In this document: in pieces, positions 79-8,031 of the stretch
Layout of the letters: each line of letters starts with the position of its first letter
How positions within the stretch are numbered: position 1 is the stretch's first letter
Assembly (NCBI GenBank): GCA_900299205.1
Contig: OMIW01000169.1
Span: forward strand, 1-8,128
Reading direction: 5' to 3'
DNA from: Pseudomonadota bacterium
Lineage (GTDB): Bacteria > Bdellovibrionota_C > UBA2361 > OMIW01
DNA length: 8,128 nucleotides
Translations under genes and position numbers: made by a program
Notes under the pieces: model-generated
What the model saw: only the letters and a program-made list of their open reading frames with translations
Database searches by the model: none
What the model was told of the DNA's origin: nothing

Positions 79-89
79 TTCGAGGGAGA

Positions 90-178
90 TGTGTGCGCTT
101 GGAGCCGCCCTGAGAAACCCATCTGCGGGTTTCCCGGCACCAACTTTATTTAGTTGAGGGCGAGGTCAAGCGCGCGCG
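90..178 (+). ncRNA. Candidate structured RNA: closed three-way junction
   Basis: Four helices can form together. P1 pairs 91-101 with 167-177 (GTGTGCGCTTG with CAAGCGCGCGC; 9 Watson-Crick and 2 G-U pairs, with a further possible U-G at 90/178). P2 pairs 106-111 with 157-162 (CGCCCT/AGGGCG). P3 pairs 114-120 with 127-133 (GAAACCC/GGGTTTC, 6-base loop). P4 pairs 141-145 with 152-156 (CAACT/AGTTG). P1 and P2 are separated by a 4x4 internal loop, and P2, P3 and P4 meet in a three-way junction with P4 abutting P2. The G-U pairs in P1 would be A-C mismatches on the other strand, which favours + as the RNA strand. I do not recognise the family: the fold and junction sequences do not fit the TPP, purine, SAM, c-di-GMP, hammerhead or 6S patterns I compared by memory. 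It could be a cis leader of a gene, a small RNA, or a chance fold in GC-rich DNA. Confidence 0.4.
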
Positions 179-379: not shown

Positions 380-1666
380 ATGCGGGATGTTGGATTTATC
401 TCCACCGACGATCCGCGATGGGTCGATGCTCTTGACCGGATCTCTCACGATGTCTACCACCGCCCGGAGTATGTCCAACTTGCGGCGGCAACGGTAAGCG
501 GTCAAGCGAGTGCCTTCTTGTGGCGAGTAGGGGAGCGCTGGGCATTGGTTCCCCTTGTGGTGCGGGATCTTCCCGCTTCCGCCTCACACATCCTCGGGGA
601 TATTCCTTCCACCATTCGAGGATTTGGACCGAATCAACAGCCACGATGGTGCGATGGCGTGTCGCCGTATGGGTACGGAGGACCAATCTCAAACGCCCCC
701 GGCCATTGTGAGGAGGAGGTTTTTTACGACCTGATGAGGCACGCTCGATTCATGGGATTGGTCACCCTCTTCCTGCGAGCCCATCCTGTGCTCTCTTCGG
801 CGTTTCGTCCCTTTCAGGGAGATTGCTCGATTGCAATCGGGACGACCTACAGCATCTCTCTCAAGGAGGCCGAGCAAACTGTAAGCGGTGAATCAAACGA
901 AGAGAAACGAGAGGAATTGAGAACGACATCGCTCCTGAACCGGTATCGCTCCTCATATCGGCAAGAGATTCGGAAACTTCTCAGAGATTCATCAATCGAA
1001 TATTCGCTCAATGACTGGCGACATCTGCCTTCCTTCGCTTCGCTCTATCGTCAGAATATGGCGAATTTGGGGGCTGATCCTAGTTATTTTTTCAGTGACA
1101 CCTACTTTCGAGATTCTCACATGAGGTTGCCTAATCGGGTATTTCTTCTCTCTGCTACCCGCGAGGGACAATTTATCGGCGGGGTTATGCTATATGGATG
1201 TCGGCACAACGACCAGGATGCGCAGGGAGGGGGGATAGCGCAATACCATCTAACGGCCTACCAGGATGAATGGCGGGTGAAAGGTTTGCCGAAGGGCTTG
1301 GTGCACAAAGCTGCTCTGTGGGCGTCGCGTCAGGGGTACCAGAATTTTCACCTCGGCGGAGGCCTCGGGGGACAAAACGATTCGTTGGCGCATTTCAAGC
1401 AAGGTTTCCACCCCCATCCTCACCATTTTCGGGTGTACCGACTGGTGACCGACAACGACGGTTATCAGCGGATTGTCGACCGGTTGGCGCCTCAGGAGAG
1501 AGATTACTTCCCAATCTATCGGAATTCAGGAGGGCAGGCCGCGAGGGTAGGGGCAGGGGAGGCGCGCGAAGGGAAGGGGAGCCCTCCAGAGCAGGGCTCT
1601 GAAACGAAAGGGAAATGCCCAGGGAGAGAATCGAACTCTCACTCTGTTGCCAGAACTGGATTTTGA
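380..1666 (+). CDS. FemAB-like GNAT-fold acyl/aminoacyl transferase
   Basis: The 428-residue protein resembles the FemAB/GNAT acetyltransferase-6 group (PF13480-like), which transfers amino acids or acyl groups to peptidoglycan precursors or other envelope glycans; the substrate here is unknown. The N-terminal half carries SPYGYGGP (residues 95-102), a motif typical of these proteins. The C-terminal GNAT-like half shows an arginine-rich helix (YRSSYRQEIRKLL, 189-201), a VFLLSATREGQFIGGVML strand pair (254-271), and the family signature FHLGGG (323-328) followed by DSLAHFKQGF (334-343). No signal peptide or membrane segment is seen, fitting a cytoplasmic enzyme. The ATG has AAGGAGG at 369-375, four bases away, so the start is well supported. 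Core homology appears to end near residue 381. Residues 384-428 are Gly/Arg/Glu-rich, and the last 16 are read from the antisense of a tRNA gene, with the TGA inside its anticodon loop. A +1 frame stop (TAG, 1548-1550) would give a protein of about 390 residues. Confidence 0.8.
   Translation: MRDVGFISTDDPRWVDALDRISHDVYHRPEYVQLAAATVSGQASAFLWRVGERWALVPLVVRDLPASASHILGDIPSTIRGFGPNQQPRWCDGVSPYGYGGPISNAPGHCEEEVFYDLMRHARFMGLVTLFLRAHPVLSSAFRPFQGDCSIAIGTTYSISLKEAEQTVSGESNEEKREELRTTSLLNRYRSSYRQEIRKLLRDSSIEYSLNDWRHLPSFASLYRQNMANLGADPSYFFSDTYFRDSHMRLPNRVFLLSATREGQFIGGVMLYGCRHNDQDAQGGGIAQYHLTAYQDEWRVKGLPKGLVHKAALWASRQGYQNFHLGGGLGGQNDSLAHFKQGFHPHPHHFRVYRLVTDNDGYQRIVDRLAPQERDYFPIYRNSGGQAARVGAGEAREGKGSPPEQGSETKGKCPGRESNSHSVARTGF
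1579..1599 (-). terminator. Hairpin downstream of tRNA-Leu, weak terminator candidate
   Basis: GAGCCCT (1579-1585) pairs perfectly with AGGGCTC (1593-1599) around a 7-base loop. It lies 17 bases past the 3' end of the leftward tRNA. On the tRNA strand it is followed by C-rich, G-poor sequence rather than a T-run, so it is not a standard intrinsic terminator. It may instead block exonuclease or assist Rho-dependent release. It also lies within the suspicious tail of the convergent FemAB-like ORF, which suggests this stretch is really intergenic. Confidence 0.3.
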
Positions 1667-5230: not shown

Positions 5231-6181
5231 TCACAAAGGGCCTGCAGCAGCCTCGCTTTGCTCAGCCTCTTCAACGCGAGAGAGCGCGCCCGTTATTACC
5301 CCTATTAACCCCCCTAGCAGAGCACTCGTCGTCACCGCAAGAAGCCAAAGCGCTCCGAATGCGACTGCTTGCTCAGTCGAGCAGATCGCTGGCACAAAAA
5401 AGAACCGGTAGGCGTTTTCCCGAACACCGAGCCCTTGCCACGAGATTGGCAGGCTGCTGACTATATTGACGAAGGGAACTATCGTCATCAGGGTCGTCAT
5501 TGATACCTCTATTCCGAGCCCGTATGCCATACAGAGATGGAGCGCGATCTGAGTGAGATGAAACAAAAGGGAGATACCTGTGATAGAAGCTATCGTCCGA
5601 GGATGAGTGGGAAAAGCGCGCGCTATCTCGATCGCCTTGGAATGGTAGCGACTCTCCCGTGGCAGAAGGATGGCGACAACGAGGGGAACGAGAAACCACC
5701 CGAGGATGATTGAGCCGCCGAGGCCGCACAGCATGAGGGACAAATAGGAGGGGAGTACTTCGTGTGAAAAGAGCCCTACGGAGACCGTCCCGAGCCCCGC
5801 TAACACCGCAAGTCCATGCAATCGATCAGCGACGACAGAGGCGACTCCTACTGCGCGCTTTGAACGCGCATTTCCGATAAGCACACCTCGAAGTACATCT
5901 CCGCCCACAGTGCCCACGCCGGCAAGATTCACGAACATCGCCGCAAAGTAGATTCTAAATGCCTCGATGAATGTTGCCTCGATATGACAGCTTCGGGCGA
6001 GTATCCACCACTTTATCGAGCTGAGGAGCTGACCGACAAAATAGCCTCCACAGAGAACCACGATCGTCCAAAGAGGAATTCCCGCAATAATCTGCGCGAG
6101 TTTGGCGAAGTCAACTGAGCGAGCCACAAACCCAACAAGGAGCAAACTCAGGATAATTTTGAGGTGTCGGCGGGATAACAT
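5231..6181 (-). CDS. Flippase-like / LPG synthase transmembrane family protein
   Basis: Integral membrane protein of 316 residues, the usual size for UPF0104 (PF03706, lysylphosphatidylglycerol synthase TM region). Members include the flippase half of MprF and glycolipid or glycan-associated membrane proteins; no soluble lysyl-transferase domain is present, so the substrate is unknown. Motifs in order: MFVNLAGVGTVGGDVLRG with the signature GGDVLR (93-98), SVVADRLHGL (115-124), and LPISWQGLGVRENAYRFFF (starting at 244), the family's characteristic SWxGLGVRE loop. Hydrophobic stretches at about 9-19, 37-55, 79-91, 122-138, 150-172, 205-221, 227-243 and 275-298 suggest 7-8 membrane segments. The C-terminal 17 residues are acidic and cytoplasm-like. 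The ATG at 6181 precedes a basic residue cluster and first helix; a TTG at 6217 would add 12 residues, and neither has a clear ribosome-binding site. Confidence 0.82.
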   Translation of the reverse strand: MLSRRHLKIILSLLLVGFVARSVDFAKLAQIIAGIPLWTIVVLCGGYFVGQLLSSIKWWILARSCHIEATFIEAFRIYFAAMFVNLAGVGTVGGDVLRGVLIGNARSKRAVGVASVVADRLHGLAVLAGLGTVSVGLFSHEVLPSYLSLMLCGLGGSIILGWFLVPLVVAILLPRESRYHSKAIEIARAFPTHPRTIASITGISLLFHLTQIALHLCMAYGLGIEVSMTTLMTIVPFVNIVSSLPISWQGLGVRENAYRFFFVPAICSTEQAVAFGALWLLAVTTSALLGGLIGVITGALSRVEEAEQSEAAAGPL

Positions 6182-7954: not shown

Positions 7955-7969
7955 TCAAAGGTGTCTTTA

Positions 7970-8020
7970 AAAATAAAGGCGCTACCAATGGCGTAAAGCG
8001 ATTGGTAGCGCCTTTATTTT
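7970..8020. terminator. Bidirectional intrinsic terminator, 20-bp perfect stem
   Basis: Positions 7970-7989 are exactly complementary to 8001-8020, with an 11-base loop (7990-8000). The GC-rich centre (GGCGCTACC/GGTAGCGCC) sits inside A-tract and T-tract ends. Rightward, the stem ends in CCTTTATTTTACC. Leftward it ends in CCTTTATTTTTAAAG, the longer T-rich tail, so it should stop transcription from both sides. It closes the flavoprotein unit and implies a convergent gene from the right. Confidence 0.85.
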
Positions 8021-8031
8021 ACCTGACTACA

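Follow-up and report, generated by a model that had tools for sequence, protein, structure and literature searches.

A structured segment beside a contig end is probably a truncated copy of a dispersed multi-hairpin repeat

We find that a strongly folding segment near one end of an 8,128-base contig (C169, one of the 206 contigs of the assembly, analysed here in full as the window) contains, at 83-146 on the minus strand, what is likely a truncated copy, and probably a relic, of a REP/MITE-type repeat that is dispersed, does not code for protein and forms several hairpins. The repeat was detected, whole or in part, at no fewer than 20 loci of the genome, by blastn with its consensus and by the covariance model R1. 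A sequence-only reading had described 90-178 as a structured RNA with a closed three-way junction, and its interpretation is partly supported: the structure is real, but it comes from a truncated copy of a repeat on the other strand and is not a free-standing three-way-junction RNA. Since the window is a whole contig, the feature lies only 90 bases from a contig end. The parts discussed below are the following.

32-78: bulged 12-bp hairpin, present in the fold of 1-380
83-146, minus strand: truncated repeat copy (model R1, blastn) that keeps the terminal hairpin and the GGCTCCAAGCG segment and lacks all other hairpins, the long second one included
97-113, minus strand: core common to the window and the copy on contig C3 (pattern search), GCTTGGAGCCGCCCTGA on the plus strand and TCAGGGCGGCTCCAAGC on the minus strand
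109-137: terminal (HR) hairpin of the MFE fold, stem GAAACCC/GGGTTTC at 114-120/127-133, which is the first hairpin of the sequence-only reading
138-146, minus strand: repeat terminus, AAGTTGGTG here and TAGTTGGTC in other copies, abutting a minus-strand TAA
147-178: unique flank outside the repeat (the R1 match stops at 146), with the 3′ arms of the closing stem, the second helix and the second hairpin

Results

The fold of 90-178 and its closing stem

The four-helix fold proposed for 90-178 was reproduced exactly as the plus-strand MFE structure (helices 91-102/166-177, 106-111/157-162, 114-120/127-133 and 141-145/152-156), at -46.4 kcal/mol with a z of -5.16 and none of 200 shuffles equally stable. 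On the minus strand the MFE is -41.5 kcal/mol (z -4.3); the inner helices are unchanged, and the 12-pair closing stem, 91-102/166-177, comes down to seven consecutive pairs and two isolated pairs. The strand bias previously read from G-U pairs does favour the plus strand, but the repeat family is oriented on the minus strand. The hairpin described at 32-78, to the left of the structure, was also recovered in the fold of 1-380, though that stretch as a whole has ordinary stability (z -1.1), and the search of its own genome returned no relative of this hairpin. A supposed switch between AGGGC and GCCCT comes down to a 5-bp match without any supporting result.

On the plus strand, the closing stem (P1) is stronger than chance pairing: the duplex of the arm 90-113 with 147-300 was matched by 0 of 2,000 shuffles, and on the minus strand the same-arm duplex is marginal, its score being reached by 97 of 2,000 shuffles. 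The plus-strand duplex was also matched by 11 of 3,000 genomic stretches, and pairing with 147-178 by chance is possible. One arm of the stem, 91-102, lies inside the repeat and the other, 166-177, in the flank beyond it. When a P1-like helix was scored in 14 copies it was strong in the window only; two other copies reach p ~0.015, over a scored stretch that there includes the repeat's own first bases. With no equivalent helix across the 14 copies except in the window, we discarded the closing stem as a family feature, and for that reason regard the closed three-way junction as specific to the window locus and without conservation in the family. Taken as a conserved fold, the junction fails because it needs the flank 147-178, which other copies lack. 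The second hairpin, CAACT/AGTTG, is likewise built with bases of this flank. The closed junction is perhaps what is left of a partial duplication in inverted orientation, or a product of chance.

The window copy as a member of a repeat family

Searching the genome with 1-380 brought up a second site, C3:1401-1426, which is 92% identical to 96-121. The core GCTTGGAGCCGYCCTGA is found again elsewhere in the genome, in surroundings that fold as a row of hairpins: as a pattern it is exact at C3 and carries one or two mismatches at C112, C165, C203 and C120, the first three of these four sites being copies by blastn or R1 and C120 not. To build model R1 we used nine copies and left out that of the window. 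Across the whole genome it matched the window at 146-83 on the minus strand with 34.2 bits and an E-value of 1.8e-6, in thirteenth rank. The aligned part takes in the HR hairpin and GGCTCCAAGCG, jumps over the second hairpin (H2) and ends at 146, and we conclude from the skipped hairpin that 83-146 is a truncated copy. Against the repeat consensus, blastn aligned window positions 96-145 with 82% identity (E 1.5e-6). The agreement with an independent model, together with the z of -5.2, refutes chance palindromes as an explanation of 83-146; that such palindromes simply arose in unconstrained DNA would fit the lack of the closing stem in other copies, but we consider it scarcely conceivable.

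The fold had been left without a known class, and Rfam bears this out for the window region, with no credible match at the gathering score or at a relaxed E-value; six loci with other copies gave no match at the gathering score either. A distant blastn comparison with phages and plasmids returned no match, and the exact core pattern is absent from the viral and genome collections. The repeat family appears to be unlisted, but of a familiar kind.

Among the copies, that of the window is an outlier in its context, being preceded only by a 71-codon open stretch; the nearest real gene, 380-1666 on the plus strand, points away from it. Since the long hairpin and all that would come after it are missing, and no clear gene lies upstream, the copy is probably inert and probably a truncated relic of the dispersed repeat. 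Its place ~200 bases upstream of the 380-1666 ORF, on the strand of the more stable fold, could also suggest a riboswitch-like cis-regulatory leader of that gene. We hold this to be very improbable, as the shared unit is reversed and other copies follow unrelated genes, no Rfam class matches and no promoter-like site was seen on the plus strand. In the class, homologues of the gene were found only in genomes G005 (33% identity) and G044 (25%), both without the element, and G005, the closest, also lacks similar upstream DNA; the genome contig collection gave no orthologue.

Architecture, covariation and ends of the repeat

The full repeat is ~170-190 bp long and consists of a TAGTTGGTCCTGAAAAA...TTTTTCAGGACGGCTCCAAGC hairpin, a long hairpin, two short hairpins and a terminal hairpin. 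On the strand of the adjacent genes, these read HR (TAGTTGGTCCTGAAAAAC..GTTTTTCAGGACGGCTCCAAGC), H2 (GCGGATGAAATCGC..GCGATTTCATCCGC), H1 (CAAACGCC..GGCGTTTG), H0 (CCGGACCA..GGTCCGG) and the terminal hairpin HL, which resembles CTCCTGAAAAA..TTTTTCAGGAG. In the genome, a DNA search with the consensus, itself derived from some of the copies that it retrieves, returned several copies at E < 1e-14, the best at E 9.5e-64. Eight copies have definable ends and measure 98-193 bp, with a long form of 167-193 bp and a short form of 98-99 bp; the short forms, on C55 and C131, are without H1 and H2. We also noticed that the copies on C18 (L105) and C203 (L112) share an extra segment past the usual 3′ end (..TGCAAAATCGG..), which suggests subfamilies with an added module.

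The stems of the repeat covary between copies. Counting four helices in eight long copies, 81.8% of the cells are paired; with a slid register the share never exceeds 49.5%. Fourteen cells are changed on both sides, compared with 6.6 in shuffles, and none of 500 shuffles reaches 14; this shuffle count is not a probability, as the copies share descent, and the slid-register controls agree with it. Most of the compensatory changes fall in helices 1 and 2, helix 1 being the stem homologous to the HR hairpin of the window, which covaries among the other copies. The covariation test put forward in the sequence-only reading therefore speaks for the family's own hairpins and not for P1, and the structured RNA unit named there is indeed a non-random palindrome, but one whose conserved part is 83-146 on the minus strand.

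The homology between copies has sharp ends, with an identity of 0.64 across the first 16 bases inside and of 0.26 and 0.22 just beyond the two ends. Five of eight copies carry TA at both ends, with 3′ ends picked by eye. Terminal inverted repeats were significant in the copies on C108 (reached by 5 of 1,000 shuffles) and C55 (4 of 1,000), and in the six others they were not.

Gene context and distribution

All 19 scored copies outside the window with a called upstream gene have that gene on the element's strand, the calls being based on ORF length and codon score rather than on annotation. In six cases (C18, C165, C66, C152, C40 and C38) the upstream gene ends on the element's leading TAG. One copy lies between ORFs that, from reading their sequences, we take to be mraZ and rsmH; across most of the order the model found no counterpart of this copy at E <= 0.01. 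Separately, an open frame seems by eye to cross the whole repeat at C112:4775-4864 on the minus strand (L107), possibly a case of the repeat being read as protein.

We searched 45 genomes of the class with R1 and found several convincing copies only in G004, which belongs to another family of the order and has five (E 2e-6 to 6e-4). Several of these stand directly after stop codons, beside genes unrelated to the neighbours in the window's genome. Single weak matches (E 0.005-0.009) occurred in G002, G019 and G032, and that in G019 resembles a true relative by eye.

A functional 3′-UTR RNA, either a terminator or a stabiliser of mRNA 3′ ends, placed by selection instead of transposition and represented in the window by a remnant, would account for part of these observations. 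The hairpin begins within a few bases of the stop codon in roughly every second copy, and likewise in G004; several G004 copies, too, have a GCTCCAAGC-like segment after the hairpin; the stems covary; and the fixed post-stop position is as compatible with a functional element as with a mobile one. Yet the proteins encoded upstream of the copies bear no relation to one another, nor do the upstream genes correspond between genomes, and the model search found the repeat to be absent from most genomes of the order. The copy between mraZ and rsmH is internal to an operon, a position at which strong termination would be damaging, and the window region has no called T-tract terminator. We thus see this explanation as possible but the less probable one, and favour a dispersed repeat.

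Discussion

The closest parallels are with the small bacterial repeats RUP, ERIC and Correia/NEMIS, which are of the MITE type in size, TA termini and folding RNA (PMC2229807). Our repeat is likewise below 200 bp, non-coding, intergenic, dispersed and multi-hairpin, with full and shortened forms, and in some of its copies the ends match and each carries TA; sequence comparison covered Rfam and the distant blastn search of phages and plasmids. In being short, dispersed and non-coding, with sharp boundaries, it agrees with a MITE. Unlike these families, it has no IS partner that we could find and shows a clear terminal inverted repeat in two copies only.

The search for a partner transposase covered the DDE_3 and Y1 families. 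An IS630-type DDE_3 transposase was not found in the assembly, which is 89.75% complete. The sole Y1/RAYT-like gene of the genome, at C131:5764-6711 (L154) or, in narrower limits, 5875-6096, matches NF047646 below the cut-off and stands directly 3′ of an ORF that presumably is ftsI; no repeat flanks it, the nearest copy being ~3.6 kb off. With the one candidate unflanked and the other not found, neither a RAYT nor an IS630-type transposase is supported as the partner of the repeat.

REPs, among them the GTAG- and CGTC-tagged types, are units of 20-40 bp found for the most part 3′ of coding sequences (PMC3733652). Our repeat resembles them in being palindromic, 3′ of coding regions and plausibly RNA-acting, in a genome with a single RAYT-like gene, but it is much longer and has four or five different hairpins, and the RAYT-like gene is unflanked. 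The CGTC type carries a CGTC tag, an 8-9 bp stem beginning with AT, a loop of 4-5 bases and a CCA tail (PMC3733652). On inspection, several copies have CGTC-like bases next to the second hairpin. The stem of that hairpin is longer, however, and its loop larger, and the stem of the third hairpin does not begin with AT; we rejected this assignment.

Integron attC sites are imperfect palindromes placed straight after stop codons in a fixed orientation, and the repeat shares all three traits. It differs in being a row of separate hairpins rather than one long one, without RYYYAAC/GTTRRRY ends, and its neighbouring ORFs, of ~150-500 aa, lie at separate loci and not in a cassette array. Both attC sites and DNA-uptake sequences were discarded because neither the structure nor the copy number agrees.

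We propose that the repeat is a small mobile element, non-autonomous and with TA-like ends, and that it spread as such. When it lands behind a gene, its leading TAG may keep that gene's stop codon or take its place, which would leave surviving copies mainly at gene ends. Transcription would then give the mRNA a series of hairpins at its 3′ end, and these might influence termination, processing or 3′ decay, as is described for ERIC, Correia and REP elements. In the window copy, the extra closing stem is supplied by the flank. A broader version, in which an order-wide family of post-stop-codon multi-hairpin RNAs (the terminal hairpin and a GCUCCAAGC motif) lands behind genes, supplies their stop and controls the fate of mRNA 3′ ends, strikes us as unlikely.

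An apparent orphan structured RNA would accordingly be understood as the decayed remains of one copy of a palindromic repeat that is dispersed in the genome and not listed in Rfam, and we suggest that a strong fold at a single locus be compared with the rest of its genome before it is named a riboswitch-like RNA. The siting directly after stop codons, with the repeat's TAG as the stop, offers a point at which the tolerance of such elements can be put to the test.

Other features of the window

The ORF 380-1666 (plus strand) has no match in Pfam or NCBIfam. A tRNA-Leu (CAA) gene at 1615-1700 on the minus strand overlaps its 3′ end by ~52 bases, so that its last ~17 codons are antisense to the tRNA. 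Towards the other end of the window, 7964-8022 holds a perfect stem of ~20 bp (AAAATAAAGGCGCTACCAAT..ATTGGTAGCGCCTTTATTTT), ~50 bases 3′ of a nitronate-monooxygenase-like gene, which looks like an ordinary (bidirectional) terminator.
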